From positions 1 through 64,000 of the forward strand of contig JAGXIQ010000112.1 of the NCBI GenBank assembly GCA_024635625.1: 64,000 nucleotides of DNA, written 5' to 3'. A program made the translations under genes and the position numbers. Origin of the DNA: Loktanella sp. (GTDB lineage: Bacteria > Pseudomonadota > Alphaproteobacteria > Rhodobacterales > Rhodobacteraceae). How positions within the stretch are numbered: position 1 is the first letter of the stretch; each line of letters opens with the position of its first letter. Under the pieces are notes generated by a model. The model had not been told where the DNA came from. It was given only the letters and a program-made list of their open reading frames with translations, and did not search any database. This document shows positions 3,828-15,307 of this stretch, piece by piece.

Positions 3828-4345
3828 GCGGCGTTCTTTTTCCCCGGCCGTCGCGGATTTCTCAGCGCCTCACGATAGTCTTTTTGCGAAATGAACGGCC
3901 AGACAGGATAATGGCCCGTGGACTCGAATATCCCTGCATTAGACGATTTGTCCTCTCTGACAAATACTGCGCGCAGCCAAGCAGCAACAGCCGACTCGCG
4001 TTGCGCGACGGGATCGTTTCCCGGCTGAGAGATCGCAGGCCAAAGATACTTCAGTTCCGTATCGAGAAACATGATCCATCTGATCCACGCTCGTTTGGTA
4101 TCGGGATGCAACCGATCCTGACCCGTCAAACGATGTTCTTTAAAATCCGAATAATAGGCCCATGCCGTATCCCAGATCGCGGCAATCGCGGGATCAGGGG
4201 TGACAGGCATGTTGTTATCAAACTGGTCATTCGTGAGCTGCCCAGACGCAAAGCGGCGCAACAGCATTGCGGCCTCGCTCCGTGCAACCCGGTCCACAAT
4301 TGAAAGGTCAGGCTTCGGATGCGTTTGAAAAAGTGACACCGTCAT
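3824..4345 (-). CDS. Uncharacterised 173-aa protein within the pyrimidine operon
   Basis: I do not recognise the family. The start at 4345 is chosen because its ATG overlaps the TAA of dihydropyrimidinase (TAATG); its stop overlaps the ATPase start by 4 bases, so it is locked into the operon on both sides. The protein appears soluble and mostly helical. It has a Trp/Tyr-rich core (WDTAWAYYSDF, then WIRWIMFLDTELKYLWP) and a basic tail ending RRPGKKNAA. It has no signal peptide and no catalytic motif I can name. Position suggests a role linked to dihydropyrimidinase or to uptake, but that is inference. Confidence 0.7.
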   Translation of the reverse strand: MTVSLFQTHPKPDLSIVDRVARSEAAMLLRRFASGQLTNDQFDNNMPVTPDPAIAAIWDTAWAYYSDFKEHRLTGQDRLHPDTKRAWIRWIMFLDTELKYLWPAISQPGNDPVAQRESAVAAWLRAVFVREDKSSNAGIFESTGHYPVWPFISQKDYREALRNPRRPGKKNAA

Positions 4346-5796
4346 TAGACCCCCGTCGCCGGAATGCCCGACCGCTCGACAGGTCGCGGTGCTGTCAGTT
4401 CTTTCCATGTCGACAGCGCCTGATTGACCGATCCCTTGGGCTCTCGCGCGACGAATTGGCCATGCCCCGGCTCCGGAATGATCGCGCCGTCGGCAAAGGC
4501 GACGCGGCCACGGGTCAGGGTGTAGCGGGGTAAGCCCTTGACCTCTTGCCCCTCGAAAACGTTGTAATCAATGTTTGATTGCTGGTCTCCGGCGGTGATG
4601 GTCTTAGATTTTTCCGGATCCCAAACGACCAAATCGGCATCGGACCCAACCAGCACGGCACCCTTGCGGGGGTAGCAATTCAAAATCTTGGCGATGTTGG
4701 TGGACGTCACGGCGACAAATTCGTTCGGTGTCAGCCGGCCGGTATTCACACCGTGCGTCCAAAGCATCGGCAAACGATCTTCCAGTCCGCCCGTGCCGTT
4801 CGGAATCTTGGTAAAATCACCGAGGCCTGTGCGCTTTTGGTCTGTTGTGAACGCACAATGGTCCGTGGCGACAACCGACAAGCTACCGCTTTGTAGTCCG
4901 GCCCAAAGGCTGTCCTGATGTTTTTTGTTACGGAACGGTGGCGACATGACGCGGCGGGCGGCGTGGTCCCAGTCAGTGTCAAAGTATTCGGACTCGTCCA
5001 GTGTCAGATGCTGGATCAGCGGTTCGCCCCAGACCCGCTTTCCCTGCATCCGCGCACGGCGGATCGCCTCGTGGGATTCCTCGCAAGAGGTATGAACGAC
5101 ATAAAGCGGCATGCCTGCCATATCGGCAATCATGATGGCCCGGTTCGTGGCCTCGCCCTCGACCTGCGTAGGGCGAGAGTATGCGTGCGCCTCTGGCCCG
5201 GTATTGCCTGCGGCCAGCAGCTTGGCGGACAATTCGGCCACCACGTCACCATTTTCGGCGTGAACCATACCAATTCCGCCCAGCTCTGCCAGACGGCTGA
5301 ACGAGGCAAAAAGCTCGTCATCATTCACCATGAGCGCGCCTTTGTAGGCCATAAAGTGCTTAAAGGTGGTGATACCGCGCTCGATGACCTTTGGCATTTC
5401 GTCAAAGACCTGCTTGTCCCACCACGTAACCGCCATGTGAAAACTATAGTCGCAATGCGCGCGGGTCGATTTGTTGTCCCACATCTGAAGTGCGTCCAGC
5501 AGGCCCTGACCCGGGCTGGGAAGTGCGAAATCCACCACCATAGTGGTGCCACCTGCCAGCGCCGCCCGAGTACCTGACTCGAAGTCGTCTGCGGAATAGG
5601 TGCCCATGAAAGGCATTTCCAGATGCGTATGCGGGTCGATACCGCCCGGCATGATATAGCAACCCGTCGCGTCCAGCACTTCGTCGCCTGTCAGGTCAGG
5701 GCCGATCGCGACGATAACGTCGCCATCAATCAGTACGTCCGCCTTGTAGGTCAGATCAGCGGTCACCACTGTCCCGTTCTTGATCACCTTGCTCAT
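4345..5796 (-). CDS. hydA: Dihydropyrimidinase (D-hydantoinase family)
   Basis: Opens the ring of dihydrouracil or dihydrothymine to N-carbamoyl-beta-amino acids, the second step of reductive pyrimidine degradation; cytoplasmic, binuclear zinc, amidohydrolase fold. It has 483 residues from the start at 5796, which has a GGAG ribosome site; a longer frame to 5901 would translate the GC-rich intergenic element and is rejected. Metal ligands visible are H56 and H58 (DPHTHLE), the probable carbamylated lysine K152 (FMAYKG), H179 (VHAENGD), H235 (VVHTSCEES) and D312 (ATDHCAF). It lies next to the carbamoyl amidohydrolase, consistent with consecutive reactions. Confidence 0.95.
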   Translation of the reverse strand: MSKVIKNGTVVTADLTYKADVLIDGDVIVAIGPDLTGDEVLDATGCYIMPGGIDPHTHLEMPFMGTYSADDFESGTRAALAGGTTMVVDFALPSPGQGLLDALQMWDNKSTRAHCDYSFHMAVTWWDKQVFDEMPKVIERGITTFKHFMAYKGALMVNDDELFASFSRLAELGGIGMVHAENGDVVAELSAKLLAAGNTGPEAHAYSRPTQVEGEATNRAIMIADMAGMPLYVVHTSCEESHEAIRRARMQGKRVWGEPLIQHLTLDESEYFDTDWDHAARRVMSPPFRNKKHQDSLWAGLQSGSLSVVATDHCAFTTDQKRTGLGDFTKIPNGTGGLEDRLPMLWTHGVNTGRLTPNEFVAVTSTNIAKILNCYPRKGAVLVGSDADLVVWDPEKSKTITAGDQQSNIDYNVFEGQEVKGLPRYTLTRGRVAFADGAIIPEPGHGQFVAREPKGSVNQALSTWKELTAPRPVERSGIPATGV

Positions 5797-5810
5797 ATCA
5801 CGTCTCCTCG

Positions 5811-5872
5811 TCCGGCCATTATCTGGCCAAAAAAATTCCGGGGGCGGCCCCTTGGCGCCGGGGGCAGCGCCC
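5811..5872. repeat. GC-rich hairpin element between the two pyrimidine hydrolases (REP-like)
   Basis: On the minus strand, directly after the TAG of the amidohydrolase gene, come nested G/C-rich inverted repeats (GGGGCGCTGCCCC, then GGCGCC and GGGGCCGCCCCC), then a T-rich tract and TGGCCAGATAATGGCC. From memory, this design (G/C hairpins, then a CCCGGA-T-rich-GGCCAGA tail) recurs between genes in Rhodobacteraceae. No second copy is visible in this window, so the repeat status is inference. Confidence 0.45.
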
Positions 5873-7123
5873 CTAGCTGACGATCTCCGCCGTTTCGACA
5901 ACCGCGTGGAACAATACGTCTGCTCCCGCGCCGGCCCATTCCTTGCTGATCTCTTCTGCCTCGTTGTGGCTTAACCCGCCCACGCAGGGACACATGACCA
6001 TGGCGGTGGGGTACAGTCGATTGATCCAGCAGGCGTCATGGCCAGCGCCAGACACGATGTTCATGTGACTGTAGCCCAAACGTTCAGCCGCGTCGCGGAT
6101 TGCGGCCACGCAACCTTCGTCGAACGTGACCGGATCGAAGTGGCCGACCGGTTCGATACTGATACCAAGCCCTAAGTCGGCGGCAATCTGGGCTGCCTCG
6201 ACCTCTAGTTTTTCGCGCATTGAAGTCAGCTTTGCTAAGTCGGGAGAGCGGAAATCGATGGTAAACACGGCCTTCCCAGGGATCACATTACGCGAATTGG
6301 GATAGACGTTGGCCTGCCCCACGGCGCCGACCGCGGCGGGTTGGTGATCCATGGCGATGCGGTGTACGGCCTCTGTGATCCGCGCCATGCCAAGGCCTGC
6401 GTTGACCCGCATGTTCATTGGCGTCGATCCGGTATGGGCGTCTTTACCGGTCAGCGTGACCTCTAGCCACCACAAGCCCTGCCCGTGGGTGACAACACCG
6501 ATCTGCTTGCCCTCCGCCTCTAGGATCGGCCCTTGTTCAATGTGCAGTTCGAAAAAGGCGTGCATCTTGCGTTCACCGACACGCTCGTCGCCTTCCCAAC
6601 CGATGCGGCGCAGTTCGTCGCCAAATTTCTTGCCATCAGCGTCCGTCCGATCTTTAGCCCAATCTTCAGTATGCATGCCCGCAAAGACACCAGAGGCAAG
6701 CATCGCGGGGGCAAAGCGTGTGCCTTCTTCGTTCGTCCAGTTGGTGACGACGATGGGGTGCTTGGTCTTGATGTTCATGTCATTCAACGACCGGATCACT
6801 TCCAGCCCGCCCAGAACGCCAAGGATGCCATCGTATTTGCCCCCTGTAGGCTGCGTATCCAAATGCGAGCCTACGTAGATGGGCAATGCATCTGGATCGG
6901 TGCCTTCTCGACGGGCAAACATGTTGCCCATACTGTCGACACCCATCTTCATCCCGGCCTTGGCGCACCAAGCGGCAAAGAGGTGCCGACCTTCACTATC
7001 GGCGTCTGTCAGGGTCTGTCGGTTATTACCGCCTGCAACACCCGGTCCAATTTTGGCCATTTCCATCAGGCTGTCCCACAGCCGATCTGGGTTGATGCGC
7101 AGGTTTTCTCCGGGGGCTGCCAT
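5873..7123 (-). CDS. Zn-dependent N-carbamoyl-beta-alanine amidohydrolase (beta-ureidopropionase type)
   Basis: A 416-residue M20/AmaB-type hydrolase that would cleave N-carbamoyl-beta-alanine to beta-alanine, CO2 and ammonia, the third step of reductive pyrimidine breakdown. Metal-site residues are visible in GSHLDT (H87, D89), at D98 in the GGKYDG stretch, and in the acidic pair in TNEEGTRF (E132, E133). The C-terminal part contains GAGHDACWINR, which carries another conserved histidine. It is the first gene of the operon; the start has an AGGAG site 6 bases upstream, and a RutR-type operator ends 24 bases before the ATG. Related enzymes act on other N-carbamoyl amino acids, and context decides the call. 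Confidence 0.9.
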   Translation of the reverse strand: MAAPGENLRINPDRLWDSLMEMAKIGPGVAGGNNRQTLTDADSEGRHLFAAWCAKAGMKMGVDSMGNMFARREGTDPDALPIYVGSHLDTQPTGGKYDGILGVLGGLEVIRSLNDMNIKTKHPIVVTNWTNEEGTRFAPAMLASGVFAGMHTEDWAKDRTDADGKKFGDELRRIGWEGDERVGERKMHAFFELHIEQGPILEAEGKQIGVVTHGQGLWWLEVTLTGKDAHTGSTPMNMRVNAGLGMARITEAVHRIAMDHQPAAVGAVGQANVYPNSRNVIPGKAVFTIDFRSPDLAKLTSMREKLEVEAAQIAADLGLGISIEPVGHFDPVTFDEGCVAAIRDAAERLGYSHMNIVSGAGHDACWINRLYPTAMVMCPCVGGLSHNEAEEISKEWAGAGADVLFHAVVETAEIVS

Positions 7124-7164: not shown

Positions 7165-7290
7165 CAAACGCTAACAGAGGGTCAGGGTCAGTCAAGCGTC
7201 ACGCGCAAAGGCGTAGCAAGTGCATAAAGATTAAGCATCGGCATCAGCACTGACTGGACCATGCCAAGTTTTTCGGCGCAGGATGAAAAC

Positions 7291-7917
7291 ATGAACGATG
7301 AGCCGCAGTTGACGCGTATTCAAACAAGGAACCGGGCCGCCATCCTTTCGGGTGGGCTTGACGCCTTTTCCATCGCGGGATTTCGCGGTGCCACGTTGGA
7401 CCAGATCGCCGAAGCAGCAGGTCTGTCGAAACCAAATCTGCTGTATTACTTCCCCTCTAAAGATGCGATCTATACTGCCTTGCTAGAACATCTTCTGGCC
7501 ACGTGGCTGGACCCGCTTCATGCACTGGATGCCGACGGCGATCCTGTGGAAGAGATCTTGGCTTACGCCCAGCGCAAGCTGGTAATGAGTCGGGATTACC
7601 CTCGCGAAAGCCGTCTGTTTGCGAATGAAATCCTTGCAGGCGCACCCCAAATTGGTGCCGTTCTTGCGGGTCCGCTGCGGGAACTGGTGGACGAGAAGGC
7701 GGTCGTCATGCGCGGCTGGATGGACGCCGGAAAAATTCGGCGAACAGACCCGCATTACCTGATCTTCTCGATCTGGGCCCTGACTCAGCACTATGCGGAT
7801 TTCGACGTACAGGTACGGGCCGTCCTTGGGCAAGCCGACCCATTCGAGGGGGCGGGACGATTCATCGATCAACTCTATCGTAGCCTGCTGGACACGGCGC
7901 ACGACGACCACTTGTAA
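7291..7917 (+). CDS. rutR: RutR-like TetR-family transcriptional regulator
   Basis: A TetR-family repressor of about 208 residues, divergent from the pyrimidine operon. The N-terminal helix-turn-helix reads FRGATLDQIAEAAGLSKPNL followed by LYYFPSK. The ligand domain keeps features of E. coli RutR (RDYPRESRLFANEILAGAP, then TQHYADFDVQV); RutR binds uracil or thymine and releases DNA. The ATG at 7291 has an AGGA site 8 bases upstream; an in-frame ATG at 7261 lacks one and would add 10 residues. The adjacent palindrome at 7147-7164 matches the RutR box. Assignment as the local pyrimidine sensor is a strong inference. Confidence 0.88.
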   Translation: MNDEPQLTRIQTRNRAAILSGGLDAFSIAGFRGATLDQIAEAAGLSKPNLLYYFPSKDAIYTALLEHLLATWLDPLHALDADGDPVEEILAYAQRKLVMSRDYPRESRLFANEILAGAPQIGAVLAGPLRELVDEKAVVMRGWMDAGKIRRTDPHYLIFSIWALTQHYADFDVQVRAVLGQADPFEGAGRFIDQLYRSLLDTAHDDHL

Positions 7918-9934: not shown

Positions 9935-10603
9935 ATGACCTATACGCTGACACTCCAATCCATCTCTCCCGTGACCCACGATAGCTGGCACTTAATTTTC
10001 GATAAGCCTGCGGGTTTTGAATTTGTGCCCGGTCAGGCCACACATATGGCCCTAGACAAGGACGGTTGGCGCGAAGAGGACCGCCCCTTTACCATGACAT
10101 CTGACCCCGACGCGCAGGTCGTGGAATTCGTCATCAAGTCCTATCCAGACCATGACGGCGTGACCGAACAAATCGCCAAAATGAAGGTAGGCGATAAAGT
10201 GATTGCTGAAGAGCCGGCAGGGGCAATCACAGACCACGGCGCGGGCGTTTTTCTGGCTGCCGGGGCAGGAATTACGCCGTTCATTGCGATCCTCGACAAA
10301 CACGCCCGCGAGGATATCAGCGGGGATCGCCTACTTTTTGCGAACAAGACAGACGCCGACATCATCCTGAAGGACAAATGGGACGCGATGGACTGCGTGC
10401 AGTCGACGTATATCATCAGCGACCAGCCCGACACGGAACACGAAAAAGGTAAGTTGGATAAAAAGATGTTGCAGGACTTGCTGCGCGATCTGGATACGAC
10501 ATTTTACATTTGCGGTCCCGGTGCCTTCGTCGATGCAATGCGTGATGTCCTGACAGAACTAAGTGTGCCGAAATCCCAGATGATCATCGAAAATGGATGG
10601 TGA
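9935..10603 (+). CDS. Ferredoxin/flavodoxin reductase-like FAD oxidoreductase
   Basis: A 222-residue oxidoreductase of the ferredoxin-NADP reductase superfamily. An FAD-binding barrel covers about residues 1-95, with the RPFTMTSDP motif for the flavin phosphate. The nucleotide domain starts at GAGITPFIAIL and ends with YICGPGAFVDAMRDVL and a C-terminal aromatic residue (ENGW) typical of flavin stacking. There is no 2Fe-2S domain. The electron partner is unknown. It sits between kup and the convergent preA gene; a role in supplying or removing electrons for PreT/PreA is conceivable but unsupported. Confidence 0.8.
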   Translation: MTYTLTLQSISPVTHDSWHLIFDKPAGFEFVPGQATHMALDKDGWREEDRPFTMTSDPDAQVVEFVIKSYPDHDGVTEQIAKMKVGDKVIAEEPAGAITDHGAGVFLAAGAGITPFIAILDKHAREDISGDRLLFANKTDADIILKDKWDAMDCVQSTYIISDQPDTEHEKGKLDKKMLQDLLRDLDTTFYICGPGAFVDAMRDVLTELSVPKSQMIIENGW

Positions 10604-10853
10604 TTTTTACTGAGGTCTAACCCTGTGTCGGCAGATTTGAAGCATGCTGATTATCCAGCGTTAGACGGACCGGAATACCGTCGGGGGGGCGCCAAAGGGA
10701 TTTGCGGCTAATGCACAACGTGACAGCGCAACTTCGTCCGTCGCCTCGTTCGGTAGATCGGTTCAAGTCAAGCAGACGATGCTAAATGGCACTAAGTACC
10801 ATGCCTTTTTACGCCCCAAGAATCCTCTCTGGAAGATCTTTGGGGCGCTGGCG
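10604..10853. other. Convergent intergenic region with stem-loop
   Basis: This 250-base stretch lies between the convergent reductase and preA genes and has no coding frame I trust. A stem-loop pairs 10812-10821 with 10837-10847 (GCCCCAA/TTGGGGC core). It is just downstream of the preA stop but has no T-run on either strand, so if it ends transcripts it is not a canonical intrinsic terminator. A run of seven G residues lies near 10684-10690. Confidence 0.4.
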
Positions 10854-12158
10854 TCACTCTGCGGCAACGGCACCCGGATTGTTTGGATGTGTCGTCCAGT
10901 TGGCATAGTCTTTTTGCACAACCTTCCCGGTGCGCGGGTCCGTTGTGCCGGGGGCCATCGCTTCCATCGTGATGCAATCTTCTACTGGGCAAACATCGAC
11001 ACAAAGGTTGCAAGCCACGCATTCGGCGTCGATCACCGTGAAGGTTCGGTCAGCTGACATCGCGATGGCCTGGTGCGATGTATCTTCACAAGCGGCATAG
11101 CACCGTCCGCAAGAGATGCAGGCGTCTTGATCAATCTTAGCTTTCGCGACGTAATTTAGGTTCAGGTACTGCCAATCGGTGACGTTCGGTACGGCCTTGC
11201 CAATGAAATCAGCGGTCGAGGTATAGCCTTTTTCGTCCATCCACTGGGATAGACCCGATTTCATCTCTGCCACCACCTTAAAGCCGTAGGTCATCGCGGC
11301 GGTGCAAACCTGCACATTACCGCAACCCAAGGCCATGAATTCTGCCGCATCGCGCCACGTCGTGACCCCGCCGATGCCAGAAATTGGCATGCCGCGGGTG
11401 CCGGGGTCGCGAGCAATTTCAGCGACCATGTTCATGGCGATAGGCTTCACCGCTGGGCCGCAATAGCCACCATGCGTGCCTTTACCATCGATCATCGGCT
11501 CTGGCGACATGGCGTCCAAATTGACGGAGGTGATCGAGTTGATCGTGTTGATCAGGCTAACCGCATCCGCACCGCCATTCTTCGCGGCATGTGCAGGCTT
11601 ACGCACGTCGGTGATGTTGGGCGTCAACTTTACGATCACCGGGCGATCATAATATGTCTTGCACCAGCGAGTGACCATTTCGATGTATTCGGGCACCTGC
11701 CCTACAGCACTACCCATACCACGTTCGGCCATACCGTGCGGACACCCGAAGTTCAGCTCAATTCCGTCAGCGTTGGTTTCCATGACGCGTGGAAGAATAT
11801 CCTTCCAAGCCTGCTCTTCACACGGGACCATCAGGGACACGATCAGGGCACGGTCGGGGTAGTCGGCCTTGACCCGGGCGATTTCCTCTAGGTTTACCTC
11901 TAGCGGGCGGTCGGTGATCAGTTCGATGTTATTCAGGCCCAACAGACGGCGGTCGGCGCCGTAGATCGCGCCGTAGCGCGGGCCGTTCACGTTGACGACG
12001 GGCGGGCCTTCGGACCCTAGCGTCTTCCAGACAACACCGCCCCAGCCCGCCTCATAGGCGCGGCGGACATTGTATTCCTTGTCAGTTGGCGGCGCCGAAG
12101 CGAGCCAGAAGGGATTGGGGCTTTTGATGCCCAGAAAGTCGGTGGTCAGATCGGCCAT
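10854..12158 (-). CDS. preA: NAD-dependent dihydropyrimidine dehydrogenase subunit PreA
   Basis: The catalytic subunit (434 residues) that reduces uracil and thymine to dihydropyrimidines, the first step of the pathway, using FMN and iron-sulfur clusters. The N-terminal barrel resembles dihydroorotate dehydrogenase and contains NFGCPHGMAERGMGSAVGQ, VIVKLTPNITDV and the FMN-binding GIGGVTTWRDAAEFM. The C-terminal roughly 90 residues carry two [4Fe-4S] ferredoxin motifs (CISCGRCYAAC and CVACNLCVDVCP). It is the last gene of the preT-Fpg-like-preA operon, 21 bases after the glycosylase-like gene. It works with PreT, encoded upstream. Confidence 0.95.
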   Translation of the reverse strand: MADLTTDFLGIKSPNPFWLASAPPTDKEYNVRRAYEAGWGGVVWKTLGSEGPPVVNVNGPRYGAIYGADRRLLGLNNIELITDRPLEVNLEEIARVKADYPDRALIVSLMVPCEEQAWKDILPRVMETNADGIELNFGCPHGMAERGMGSAVGQVPEYIEMVTRWCKTYYDRPVIVKLTPNITDVRKPAHAAKNGGADAVSLINTINSITSVNLDAMSPEPMIDGKGTHGGYCGPAVKPIAMNMVAEIARDPGTRGMPISGIGGVTTWRDAAEFMALGCGNVQVCTAAMTYGFKVVAEMKSGLSQWMDEKGYTSTADFIGKAVPNVTDWQYLNLNYVAKAKIDQDACISCGRCYAACEDTSHQAIAMSADRTFTVIDAECVACNLCVDVCPVEDCITMEAMAPGTTDPRTGKVVQKDYANWTTHPNNPGAVAAE

Positions 12159-12179
12159 GTTGTCCTCCTTAGCGCGGCG

Positions 12180-12968
12180 TCAGCCCGCGTTGGTCTGATG
12201 ATCCGGGCAGTGATACGCCGTGCGTCCGCCCACTTTTAATGTGGTGATGGTGCCGCCACATCGCGGGCAGGCTGCCCCTTTGGTGCGGTTGTGAATGAGC
12301 CAATCGTGGGGCAAATGGCTGTAGTCCGCATTCTTGGACGTGACGTATCCCATGATGTCTTGGATCGCGCGGCGCAGATGGGCGACCCGGTCGGCGGACA
12401 GTTCGTTGGCCTTTGCAGTCGGCATGATGCCCGTGCAATACAGCGCCTCGTCCGACCATAAGTTGCCGACACCAGCCAGTTTGGACTGGTCCAGCAGCGC
12501 GGATTTCACCGCCCCACGAGTGCTGCCAACAGCTTGCGCAAACGCGTTGTCACCGATTTCCATCGCGTCTGGGCCAAGCCCCTTTGCTGCGATGAACTCG
12601 TCCACATCTTCGACCAGTTTTACGTGGCCAAACTTGCGCGGGTCGCGAAAGGCCAGACGGCGCTCTCCCTCGAACACAACGGTCAGGCGGGCGTAGTCAG
12701 GTGGGGTGTCGCCGTCGTCGTAGACCCGAAGTGACCCGGACATTCCAAGGTGGATATGCAACCAAGGACCATCCTTGGACCCAGCAAAGATATACTTACC
12801 GTGCCGCCGGGTCTGGCTGAACTGCGTGCCGACGAAACGATTCCGCTCTGCTTCGGACGGAAGGTCGACATGTTTCACCTCGCCCAAAGCAAAGCCTTGG
12901 ATCGTCCGGTGCAGACAATTATCCGCGATCCGCTGCCGAGCGGCGTCAGCTTCGGGCAATTCAGGCAC
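12180..12968 (-). CDS. Fpg/Nei-family DNA glycosylase-like protein in the preT-preA operon
   Basis: A 262-residue protein of the formamidopyrimidine-DNA glycosylase fold. After removal of Met, the N-terminal Pro nucleophile and Glu remain (PELPEAD in place of the usual PELPEVE). The beta-hairpin lysine (RRHGKYIF), the helix-two-turn-helix (LAGVGNLWSDEALY) and a C-terminal zinc finger (CPRCGG, then YHCPDH) are visible; the fourth zinc ligand is His rather than Cys. The start is GTG at 12968, overlapping the preT stop by 8 bases. In Fpg this fold excises oxidised purines and ring-opened bases. Why it is embedded between the two dehydrogenase subunits is unknown; it may be a true repair enzyme carried along or a repurposed base-binding protein. 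Confidence 0.85.
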   Translation of the reverse strand: MPELPEADAARQRIADNCLHRTIQGFALGEVKHVDLPSEAERNRFVGTQFSQTRRHGKYIFAGSKDGPWLHIHLGMSGSLRVYDDGDTPPDYARLTVVFEGERRLAFRDPRKFGHVKLVEDVDEFIAAKGLGPDAMEIGDNAFAQAVGSTRGAVKSALLDQSKLAGVGNLWSDEALYCTGIMPTAKANELSADRVAHLRRAIQDIMGYVTSKNADYSHLPHDWLIHNRTKGAACPRCGGTITTLKVGGRTAYHCPDHQTNAG

Positions 12969-14286
12969 CGGTCAGTACCGCATGGATATCTAGCGCCGCG
13001 TCACGCCCCTGTGCGACGGCGGTGACGGTCAGGTCATCGCCACCCAAGGCACAGTCACCACCAGCCCAAACACCATCGCGGGTGGTGCGACCAGCACCGG
13101 TCACCTTGATCTTGCGGCCCTCGACAGTCAGGCCACCATCCGTGGTCAAGGTCTGACCAATGGCACGAAACACCTGATCAGCAGACAGCGTCATCGTCTC
13201 TCCGGTGCCGCGCAGTCCGGTACCATCGTCGGATGTGTATTCAAGATCAATCGCATCGGCGTGAACGGCATGTGGCTTTACGTTGAACAGGATACGTACG
13301 CCATGACTGGCGGCAAGGTCCTGTTCGTAGCGGCTGGCCCCCATCGCCTCGCGCCCACGGCGATAGGCGATCGTGACGCTTTCGGCGCCAAGCAGTTTCG
13401 ATTGCACAGCCGCATCCACCGCCGTCATGCCACCGCCAATAACGACGACGTTGCGACCCACGGGCAGCGCGGACAGATCAGTGCTTTGGCGCAGTTCGGC
13501 AATAAAGCTGACGGCATCGCGGACACCATCGTGGTCGTCGCCATCGATACCCAAGGCATTTACCCCACCAAGGCCAACGCCAAGGAACACAGCGTCGAAT
13601 TCGTCCGACAGCGTATCAAGGCTTAATTCGCCGCCCAGCACCTTACCGGCGTCCAGCGTAATACCACCGATTCCCAGCAGCCACGCGACCTCTCGCTGTG
13701 CAAATCCATCGGTCGATTTGTAAGCCGCGATGCCGTATTCGTTTAGGCCACCAGCCTTGGGTCGGGCATCGTACAGCGTGACAGCGTGTCCAAGCATGGC
13801 CAGACGGTGGGCACAGGACAGACCGGCAGGACCAGCACCGACAACGGCCACGCGCTTGCCAGTCTCAGCAGCGCGCGTAAAGGGATGGCCTTGACGGGTC
13901 AGCACGGTGTCAGTGGCGTAGCGTTGAAGACGGCCGATCTCTACCGGCTTGCCTTCTGCCGCTTCGCGCACGCAGGCACCTTCGCACAGGTCCTCTGTCG
14001 GGCAAACGCGGGCGCACATACCGCCAAGGATATTAGATTCAAGGATCGTGCGCGCCGCCGCTTCTGGCGTGCCAGTACTGATTTGGCGAATGAATAGTGG
14101 GATGTCGATCCCCGTGGGGCATGCTGTCATGCAGGGTGCATCATAGCAAAAATAGCATCGATCAGCGGCGACATGCGCCTCGTGCCGATCCAGTGGGGCG
14201 TGCAGGTCAGCAAAGCCGGCGGTCAGCAGATCAGCGCTGAGGCGGCCAGCAACGATGCCGGGGGCGGTAGGAGATGTCATGGGCAA
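12961..14286 (-). CDS. preT: NAD-dependent dihydropyrimidine dehydrogenase subunit PreT
   Basis: The electron-input subunit (441 residues) that passes electrons from NAD(P)H through FAD and iron-sulfur clusters to PreA. The N-terminal cysteines C44, C47, C52, C56 and C91, C95, C101, C105 form the twin cluster pattern shared with GltD. The first dinucleotide fold is GAGPAGLS near 151-158, and a second is VVIGGGMTAVDAAVQ near 265-280. A similar design is seen in gltD later in this window, but neighbours and the PreA partner identify this one. It is the first gene of the operon, divergent from serB. Confidence 0.93.
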   Translation of the reverse strand: MPMTSPTAPGIVAGRLSADLLTAGFADLHAPLDRHEAHVAADRCYFCYDAPCMTACPTGIDIPLFIRQISTGTPEAAARTILESNILGGMCARVCPTEDLCEGACVREAAEGKPVEIGRLQRYATDTVLTRQGHPFTRAAETGKRVAVVGAGPAGLSCAHRLAMLGHAVTLYDARPKAGGLNEYGIAAYKSTDGFAQREVAWLLGIGGITLDAGKVLGGELSLDTLSDEFDAVFLGVGLGGVNALGIDGDDHDGVRDAVSFIAELRQSTDLSALPVGRNVVVIGGGMTAVDAAVQSKLLGAESVTIAYRRGREAMGASRYEQDLAASHGVRILFNVKPHAVHADAIDLEYTSDDGTGLRGTGETMTLSADQVFRAIGQTLTTDGGLTVEGRKIKVTGAGRTTRDGVWAGGDCALGGDDLTVTAVAQGRDAALDIHAVLTGA

Positions 14287-14329
14287 CCTCGGTCAGTTGA
14301 TGTGACCCAAGCTTGGCACAGGTTCATTT

Positions 14330-14345
14330 TTTATCAAACGGTAAA
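14330..14345. promoter_or_regulatory. Possible degenerate RutR-like site upstream of preT
   Basis: TTTATCAAACGGTAAA has the same 6-4-6 layout as the RutR box near 7.1 kb. Three of the twelve arm bases differ from TTGACC/GGTCAA. It lies 44 bases upstream of the preT ATG, in the divergent region with serB. Chance occurrence is quite possible. Confidence 0.25.
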
Positions 14346-14437
14346 TTTTAGGCGAAATGTAAACTGCTGCGGATGGTCTTTCCCAAACCCGGGAAAGGCG
14401 GTAGCACGACGCAACCGCCGAAAAGGACCTATTTCCG

Positions 14438-15307
14438 ATGTTCACCGCCACCCTAATCGCGAAACCTGACACGCTTGACGCCACATTGGTTGAGAACTTG
14501 CGCAACGCTTGGGGCGGAGGTGAGGCCCTTTGGCTGTCGCACGCAGAGGCAGCTGAATTCACGATGCCCGTGCCGCCCGATAACCTGTGGGCGGTCTGGG
14601 ATGACATGCAGACGCTTGGCATCGATCTGGTACTGCAGCCCAGCGCAGGCCGCCGCAAGAAAATGCTGCTGGCCGATATGGATAGCACGATGATCCGTCA
14701 GGAATGCATCGACGAACTCGCCGCCGCGGCAGGTGTGGGCGAGCGGGTTGCCACGATTACCGCAAAGGCGATGAACGGTGAACTGGATTTCGAGGGAGCG
14801 CTGATCGAACGGGTCGGTCTGCTAAAAGGCTTGCCCGAAAGCATCATCCAACATGTTCTGGATACCCGCATCACGCTGATGCCCGGTGGATACGAGCTGG
14901 TGCAGACGATGAAGGCCCATGATGGTTTTGCGGCCCTCGTGTCTGGCGGATTCACCGCCTTTACCGCGCGGATTGCGGCGGCTCTTGGGTTTGACGAAAA
15001 CCGTGCAAATAAGTTGTTGGTTACAGACGGCCGCCTGACTGGCGATGTGGGCAAGCCGATCCTTGGACGGCAGGCGAAGGTCGACGCCCTGCAAGAAATC
15101 ACTGCGCGGTTGGGCATTTCCGAGTCGGATGTCATCGCCGTGGGTGATGGCGCGAATGATCTGGGGATGTTGGGTCGGGCGGGGACAGGCGTCGCGCTGC
15201 ATGCGAAACCAAGTGTGCAAAAGGAATGTGAAGTGCGGATCAACCACGGTGATCTGACGGCGCTGTTGTTTATCCAAGGCTACGCCCGCACGGATTTCAT
15301 GACCTAA
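14438..15307 (+). CDS. serB: Phosphoserine phosphatase
   Basis: A 289-residue HAD-family enzyme that hydrolyses phosphoserine to serine in the last step of serine synthesis; cytoplasmic. The nucleophile motif is DMDST (D80, D82). The second and third motifs are LVSGGFTAF and the GRQAKVDALQ lysine region, and the metal-binding motif is VGDGANDLGML. An N-terminal region of about 75 residues corresponds to the partly degenerate ACT-like domain of long bacterial SerB proteins. It is divergent from preT with about 150 bases between starts. Confidence 0.94.
   Translation: MFTATLIAKPDTLDATLVENLRNAWGGGEALWLSHAEAAEFTMPVPPDNLWAVWDDMQTLGIDLVLQPSAGRRKKMLLADMDSTMIRQECIDELAAAAGVGERVATITAKAMNGELDFEGALIERVGLLKGLPESIIQHVLDTRITLMPGGYELVQTMKAHDGFAALVSGGFTAFTARIAAALGFDENRANKLLVTDGRLTGDVGKPILGRQAKVDALQEITARLGISESDVIAVGDGANDLGMLGRAGTGVALHAKPSVQKECEVRINHGDLTALLFIQGYARTDFMT

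Follow-up and report, generated by a model that had tools for sequence, protein, structure and literature searches.

A Cys-Cys-Cys-His Fpg paralogue without a capping loop, located between preT and preA in Rhodobacteraceae and associated with the photosynthetic reaction centre

Why does a gene for a DNA glycosylase-like protein lie between two genes of pyrimidine breakdown? The question is raised by a stretch of 64,000 nucleotides from Loktanella sp. (contig JAGXIQ010000112.1; hereafter the window), in which a divergent second Fpg gene, given here the local label fpg2, is embedded between preT and preA (Table 1). The first-pass annotation offered two readings, a repair enzyme co-expressed with pyrimidine breakdown or a divergent base-processing protein. 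It also described fpg2 as overlapped by preT and separated from preA by 21 bases; the ORF coordinates confirm the 21-base gap and give an overlap of 8 bases.

Table 1. Coordinates of fpg2, its main sequence features and the neighbouring genes in the window
Feature	Position	Strand	Description
fpg2	12180..12968	-	262-aa Fpg/Nei-family protein without capping loop; GTG start
Pro2-Glu3 codons	12960..12965	-	P and E in 25 of 25 fpg2 rows
Lys58 codon	12795..12797	-	K in 25 of 25 fpg2 rows
Residues 190-228, helix alphaF to finger	12285..12401	-	39 residues; 8-oxoG-capping loop missing
Zinc finger C234-C237-C254-H257 and Arg249	12198..12269	-	C-C-C-H in 25 of 25 fpg2 rows
preT	12961..14286	-	Fer4_20 (dihydropyrimidine dehydrogenase domain II) and Pyr_redox_2; upstream of fpg2
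preA, NAD-dependent dihydropyrimidine dehydrogenase subunit	10854..12158	-	NF006183, 717.7 bits (cut-off 335)
Hydantoinase/carbamoylase-family amidase	5873..7123	-	TIGR01879, 393.0 bits (cut-off 204)
Dihydropyrimidinase	4345..5901	-	TIGR02033, 593.2 bits (cut-off 393.25)
RutR-like TetR-family regulator	7261..7917	+	TetR_C_3, 154 bits; TIGR03613, 227 bits (under cut-off 368)
Ferredoxin-reductase-like FAD/NAD-binding protein	9935..10603	+	Homologue adjoins displaced fpg2 in G1121

The fpg2 product matches three Fpg/Nei domains in Pfam, Fapy_DNA_glyco (89.2 bits), H2TH (56.5 bits) and zf-FPG_IleRS (22.6 bits), all above the cut-offs and far above chance. In an alignment of 87 rows, 25 of them fpg2, residues Pro2, Glu3, Lys58, Asn169 and Arg249 are invariant among the fpg2 proteins, whose identity goes down to about 50%. 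We take Pro2 and Glu3 to be the N-terminal nucleophile and acid of the family, Lys58 to be its beta-hairpin lysine, and Asn169 and Arg249 to be the H2TH asparagine and the finger arginine, with roles in the family's catalytic set. The domain matches and the invariant residues together bear out the earlier observation that the Pro-Glu N-terminus, the hairpin lysine, H2TH and the zinc finger are kept. The PELPEAD start of the window protein was also read correctly. Other members start with PELPEAE, PELPECE, PELPESD, PELPEVE, PELPENE or PELPAAE, and because the letters after PELP differ across the family, PELPEAD is not a diagnostic signature. In one row (G018) Glu6 is replaced by Ala, and the wedge position 113 is occupied by Phe in 15 and by Leu in 10 of the 25 proteins; thus, members of the family may differ in substrate. 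The alignment and the tree built from it leave out the loci L076, L077, L080 and L083, which duplicate other genomes, 21 of the 30 loci L121-L150, a frameshifted copy in G553 and the copy in G1121.

The 8-oxoG-capping loop of canonical Fpg falls within the stretch from helix alphaF to the zinc finger. This stretch, Leu190-Arg228 in the window protein, has 38-40 residues in all 25 fpg2 rows, compared to 49 residues in 12 of 12 canonical rows, a hand-chosen set of 11 canonical-looking loci and the N. meningitidis Fpg. In Arabidopsis FPG1, the equivalent stretch has 38 residues; the segment NADYSHLPHDWLIHNR of the window aligns with the plant segment DADSSQFPSNWIFHNR, and the Tyr-Gly-Arg motif is replaced. 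The finger is also altered: 11 of the 12 canonical rows have four cysteines, whereas the one histidine ligand already seen in the window protein (His257) is a trait of the whole fpg2 family. Judged by its sequence, fpg2 is a loop-less Fpg paralogue with a C-C-C-H finger. The missing 8-oxoG-capping loop, absent from the first-pass annotation, is the most telling of these changes. Four Gemmatimonadota rows (L097, L105, L114, and L127) have a stretch of 37-40 residues, though they are on the MutM side of the tree. Hence loop loss is not unique to the fpg2 side, and in Gemmatimonadota the shortening is apparently a separate loss.

The structure of the window protein, predicted with AlphaFold2 from an alignment of 26 proteins (the window protein and those of named loci), has a mean pLDDT of 95.1. 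It contains no strand of three or more residues between helix 192-211 and strand 242-246. The best PDB match to the model is Arabidopsis FPG (3twm, Z 29.8, rmsd 2.1 over 255 residues), followed by Fpg/MutM of Lactococcus, Geobacillus and E. coli with Z up to 28.3 and by Nei at about 24. Arabidopsis FPG is also the top Foldseek match (3twk, E 7.6e-26), and FPG1 is the best PDB sequence match in a phmmer search. As the gap in Z is small, the fold alone cannot separate a plant-like from a canonical protein, and the loop decides. The loop and the best structural match suggest that fpg2 resembles plant FPG more than it resembles the canonical MutM of its own genome.

The same features place fpg2 relative to the other known Fpg/Nei systems, whose clades are told apart, in excerpts of PMC3188539, by the loop, the finger and the Tyr-Gly-Arg motif. 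Arabidopsis FPG1 and the plant and fungal Fpg proteins (PFNei in the same excerpts) share with fpg2 the short stretch between alphaF and beta9/10 (38 against 39 residues), the loss of the Tyr-Gly-Arg motif as defined there, and the catalytic residues. The plant proteins are zinc-less, whereas fpg2 retains its putative zinc ligands. According to excerpts of PMC10573277 and PMC6264785, plant FPG removes Fapy bases, guanidinohydantoin and spiroiminodihydantoin well and 8-oxoG poorly, a preference ascribed there to its short capping loop. Canonical MutM/Fpg proteins (TIGR00577; BaFpg1 in the excerpts of PMC3188539) share with fpg2 the PELPE start, the hairpin lysine, the H2TH asparagine, the finger arginine and the fold. 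They differ in having the capping loop, a four-cysteine finger and a Tyr-Gly-Arg-like motif, while fpg2 has neither loop nor motif and its fourth ligand is His; it scores 163.2 bits against TIGR00577, under the equivalog cut-off of 203.3. Nei and metazoan NEIL2 belong to the same H2TH superfamily, and the score of fpg2 against the Nei model PRK10445 is 63.3 bits, under the cut-off of 252. PELPE, to our knowledge, is not the start of Nei. The finger of NEIL2 mixes Cys and His as that of fpg2 does, but in the order CHCC, with His as the second and not the fourth ligand, as given in the excerpts of PMC3188539. The BaFpg2 clade of that source, not to be confused with our label, is likewise a narrowly distributed second clade of bacterial Fpg; it is described there as including Actinomycetes and having four perfectly conserved cysteines and an 18-residue specificity loop, so that fpg2, with His in 25 of 25 rows, is set apart from it by description only. 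Finally, the loop is short or absent, as in fpg2, in several bacterial Fpg-like groups (the actinobacterial L088 and its kin, zinc-less Rokubacteria, and the alphaproteobacterial C4 proteins L062-L066), but their finger ligands and clades differ from those of fpg2.

In the maximum-likelihood tree of the 87 rows, midpoint-rooted for drawing only, the 25 fpg2 proteins are monophyletic (support 100/99) and are grouped with alphaproteobacterial loop-less proteins and with one row each from a Flavobacteriaceae and a Lokiarchaeota MAG (99/91). A branch with support 99/92 has on its fpg2 side also plant FPG, Rokubacteria, Armatimonadetes and the loop-less actinobacterial proteins, while the rows chosen as MutM stand apart and together (99/98). 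Thus fpg2 and plant FPG are on the same side of this branch and, as placed in this tree, in different subclades. Plant FPG groups with the Rokubacteria and Armatimonadetes proteins (100/98), although this placement is unsure, as the single plant row is long and has an unusual composition.

Several relatives in the tree deserve mention in their own right. The Rokubacteria proteins L100, L101, L109, L116 and L119 and the Armatimonadetes protein L113, which group with Arabidopsis FPG1, have a short loop and no finger cysteines; it is possible that such proteins are the bacterial source or a sister group of plant FPG. The two MAG proteins, L086:7001-7792 (Flavobacteriaceae) and L087:835-1638 (Lokiarchaeota), are 33% identical to fpg2, with binning error possible in both cases; of the two, L086 also has the C-C-C-H finger. 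Loop-less Actinomycetota proteins (L088-L094, L096, L098, L099, L103, L110, and L111) have Glu or His as the fourth finger ligand and often Asp as the second, a finger chemistry that, as aligned, is unusual.

The genome of the window, 92.5% complete, contains two Fpg genes in the Pfam search. The higher-scoring one (127.5 bits) is located on another contig, G000:C142, and its product has a loop stretch of full length as well as four cysteines; it is the second, canonical mutM that the first-pass annotation proposed to look for, and it rules out fpg2 as the only Fpg of the genome. The identity of fpg2 and MutM is 29-40% across the family and 29-35% within the same genome. Rhodobacteraceae is used here in a broad sense, as one family for the genomes with G-handles, and covers named carriers assigned by NCBI to Roseobacteraceae or Paracoccaceae. 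An Fpg match at E 1e-10 or better is present in 141 of 149 genomes of this family, and the divergent second gene in four of them (G000, G018, G065, and G066). A profile built from these four proteins was matched at more than 340 bits in 9 of 394 genomes of a wider family sample, and one further carrier, G953, comes from a phylum sample of 398 genomes. All 27 distinct carriers searched, 20 from Rhodobacteraceae and 7 from Sphingomonadales, have a second, higher-scoring Fpg-domain match (113-138 bits); hence fpg2 was added to mutM and did not replace it.

The distances between fpg2 proteins from 19 carriers (G553 excluded) follow those of mutM (Mantel r 0.74) more closely than those of preT (0.48) and preA (0.41), which fits mostly vertical descent with losses. 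Within the genus of the window (15 pairs), dN/dS is 0.08-0.22 for fpg2, 0.06-0.19 for preT and 0.01-0.07 for preA, and these low values, a sign of purifying selection, indicate that fpg2 is kept for its product. The sequence comparisons are best explained if fpg2 has long been present in Rhodobacteraceae and was passed on mostly by vertical descent. For most carriers, both the purifying selection and the Mantel correlation with mutM run counter to a recent horizontal gift or a decaying gene. The exception is Sphingomonadales: copies from Erythrobacteraceae and Sphingomonadaceae are nested among the Rhodobacteraceae proteins, beside G066 (99/99, 97/85, 100/98), and by this nesting look acquired by transfer. 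In G553 (L060:5930-6720), a genome of otherwise good quality, fpg2 is frameshifted near the start, which points to either early decay or a sequencing error.

Could the protein have kept the Fpg fold and lost its catalysis, so that its only role is to bind damaged DNA or to regulate the operon? The altered finger, the missing loop and the scores under the matched NCBIfam cut-offs for Fpg (163.2 against 203.3 bits) and Nei are what such a protein would have. However, the catalytic set is retained by all 25 proteins in spite of their divergence, the gene is under purifying selection, and, as described below, it persists away from preTA; we consider a loss of catalysis very improbable.

The surroundings of fpg2 in the window are those of a catabolic locus. 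Taken together, preT, preA, the dihydropyrimidinase, the amidase and the RutR-like regulator form a reductive pyrimidine-breakdown cluster. For preT, none of the best 25 of 60 NCBIfam models reaches its cut-off. The amidase would, from its context, perform the beta-ureidopropionase step, and the true start of the dihydropyrimidinase is probably downstream of the listed TTG. The overlap of preT and fpg2 makes co-transcription of preT, fpg2 and preA likely; a scan of positions 10600-14700 for promoters and terminators yielded no more matches than in shuffled sequence.

The order preT-fpg2-preA, the conservation of which was an explicit question of the first-pass annotation, is kept in 18 of the 20 Rhodobacteraceae carriers. 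Given this order and the separate canonical mutM, fpg2 is neither a lone Fpg gene nor a gene without a conserved position. Among the matches listed, at least eight named carriers have this order, as in Roseivivax halodurans, two Jannaschia species, Kandeliimicrobium roseum and an uncultured Marivita, and also in Loktanella sp. 3ANDIMAR09, Pseudoroseicyclus tamaricis and Histidinibacterium lentulum. The scan for related loci covered the best 80 of 547, which makes the number of named carriers a lower bound. An additional ORF, by eye DedA-like, separates preT from fpg2 in G018.

A natural explanation of this order would be a link to the pathway itself: Fpg2 would clear from DNA the lesions, for example dihydrothymine and dihydrouracil, that arise from PreTA activity. 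Saturated pyrimidines are targets of Fpg/Nei enzymes as a class, and the window contains the reductive pathway with both dihydropyrimidinase and amidase. The substrates of PreTA, however, are free bases, and most of the sampled PreTA users lack fpg2 (preA is present in 127 of the 149 family genomes and fpg2 in four of the same 149). Moreover, no preA was detected at E 1e-60 in any of the seven Sphingomonadales carriers. In G1121, from the genus of the window, an intact fpg2 (L191:3371-4153, 73% identity) is adjacent to a homologue of the reductase gene at 9935-10603 and has neither preT nor preA at its locus; a separate preT-preA pair without fpg2 is located elsewhere in this genome. This looks like a case in which the operon was replaced and fpg2 was left behind. 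In G066, fpg2 adjoins kdsA/kdsB-like genes (by eye), away from preTA. At the 37 preA loci, junctions of preT and preA without fpg2 are mostly tight, and several contain other ORFs (L176, L179, L181, and L184). Since preT and preA are seldom separated, any gene that has landed in their junction would remain there whether or not it takes part in the pathway. Carriers without preA, copies of fpg2 apart from preTA and unrelated junction ORFs leave the link to pyrimidine breakdown unsupported; it is improbable, and the original finding is at its weakest here. Of the two initial readings, the divergent Fpg fold with its catalytic residues has stood, and the functional tie to pyrimidines has not.

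Some junctions show further details. The ORFs in L179, L181 and L184 are, by eye, glyoxalase-like, methyltransferase-like and glycosyltransferase-like. The preT-preA junction of G050 (L167/L194) retains, next to other ORFs, a C-terminal relic of fpg2 covering residues 214-258 at 51% identity. A related small ORF (..PEATPGTVEHDV..) is seen by eye in the preT-preA junctions of L167 (G050) and L176 (G066), beside the relic in the former genome, while in the latter fpg2 itself has moved away. At four of the seven Sphingomonadales loci (L073, L078, L082, and L085, from Erythrobacteraceae and Sphingomonadaceae), fpg2 directly follows a gene that by eye is 5-formyltetrahydrofolate-cyclo-ligase-like. 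The literature search found no paper joining dihydropyrimidine dehydrogenase, formamidopyrimidine and a reductive-pathway operon, and no title on the fpg2 gene among the matches listed.

The most interesting new lead on fpg2 is its association with phototrophy. The photosynthetic reaction centre, scored by a PF00124 search, is present in 18 of the 20 Rhodobacteraceae carriers, including the genome of the window, and absent in G018 and G1121; in the family sample it is present in 61 of 149 genomes and in 58 of 145 non-carriers. In a one-per-genus scan, which is less biased, it is found in 8 of 9 carriers against the same 58 of 145. On a 153-tip mutM tree, the counts are 18 of 20 carriers and 52 of 133 non-carriers (Fisher p 1.5e-5). 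From the 149-genome sample, this tree leaves out 8 genomes without a mutM match and 5 with a partial or split mutM. In the Pagel test, LR is 15.1 for the protein tree (p 0.0045) and 15.8 for the nucleotide tree (p 0.0033), and p is 0.004-0.010 when the set is restricted to a single genome per genus, to genomes that contain preA, or in both ways. When the reaction centre was simulated as evolving alone, the observed difference was reached in 0 of 2076 and 0 of 660 kept runs. The fitted rate of fpg2 loss is much higher without the reaction centre.

Two traits, the reaction centre and flagellin, were tested for co-occurrence with fpg2. The flagellin control is flat (18 of 20 carriers against 53 of 60, p above 0.96, in 80 of the 153 genomes), and it is a weak control, since flagellin is very common (71 of 80). 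These tests use a single-gene (mutM) tree with over-sampled carriers and without habitat as a covariate, and G553 with its frameshifted copy is counted as a carrier; without it, the count is 17 of 19. In Sphingomonadales, where carriers alone were counted, only 3 of 7 have the reaction centre, a count that speaks against the association. It is absent in G050, which has the fpg2 relic, and in G006, which has no fpg2, and present in G1118, which also lacks fpg2. The 52 non-carriers with a reaction centre and the two carriers without it demonstrate that fpg2 is not needed for phototrophy. If the protein acts in the same way as plant FPG, the gene might be kept under heavy photo-oxidative damage.

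Published data on such damage point in more than one direction. In Rhodobacter, singlet oxygen from bacteriochlorophyll is given as the main photo-oxidative agent in excerpts of PMC3818230, and it raises DNA-repair proteins according to excerpts of PMC7074977. According to the latter source, singlet oxygen is mutagenic in E. coli through 8-oxoG itself, a lesion that Fpg2 is predicted not to remove, and this observation stands against a photo-oxidative reading. In PMC4030987, as excerpted, one-electron oxidation and not singlet oxygen was found in the paper's own double-stranded DNA system; thus the lesion chemistry of a photo-oxidative role is conjectural. The literature search found no paper linking aerobic anoxygenic phototrophy, singlet oxygen and a DNA repair glycosylase, and none on formamidopyrimidine in aerobic anoxygenic phototrophs.

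Based on these results, fpg2 probably encodes a working, bifunctional accessory glycosylase/AP lyase that acts beside MutM on lesions other than 8-oxoG, likely in photo-oxidative repair, and independently of pyrimidine breakdown. Fpg2 would flip the damaged base out and cut with its N-terminal proline, as plant FPG does. Without a loop closing over 8-oxoguanine, it should leave 8-oxoG to MutM. Its own substrates would be formamidopyrimidines, guanidinohydantoin and spiroiminodihydantoin, perhaps oxidised pyrimidines, and AP sites. The gene would have come to sit between preT and preA with a job independent of their pathway, and would have been gained or kept mainly in lineages with a photosynthetic reaction centre; given this distribution, selection likely acts on the repair of DNA damage caused by photo-oxidation through singlet oxygen.

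Another scenario, which we regard as unlikely though deserving serious attention, is that fpg2 is an ordinary extra copy, a back-up Fpg/Nei glycosylase with an accidental place in the operon and a spread that follows lineage and habitat. Intact catalytic residues are expected of such a copy, and its patchy occurrence (9 of 394 family genomes), its loss on more than one occasion (the relic in G050; G006 and G1118 without the gene), the unrelated ORFs in the junctions of L176, L179, L181 and L184, and the near inseparability of preT and preA, by which any gene between them stays put, all agree with it. Less easily explained in this way are the association with the reaction centre, which holds in the phylogenetic test with a flat, if weak, control trait, the purifying selection, and the joint presence of the loop loss and the C-C-C-H finger in all 25 rows.

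The accessory-glycosylase reading also has a narrower form, which we put forward tentatively as a possibility. Fpg2 may serve aerobic anoxygenic phototrophs as a glycosylase dedicated to photo-oxidative damage, with MutM taking 8-oxoG and Fpg2 taking Fapy and the hydantoins formed when 8-oxoG is oxidised further, in a logic similar to that of FPG and OGG1 in plants, and it would tend to be lost when phototrophy is lost.

In summary, a conserved place in a catabolic operon need not imply a shared pathway, and fpg2 corrects this tempting inference. If the proposed role is true, some phototrophic bacteria would split the repair of guanine oxidation as plants do, pairing an FPG that lacks the loop with another enzyme for 8-oxoG. 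The fpg2 family would then provide a simple bacterial system for the role of the capping loop, the importance of hydantoin lesions and the DNA cost of phototrophy.
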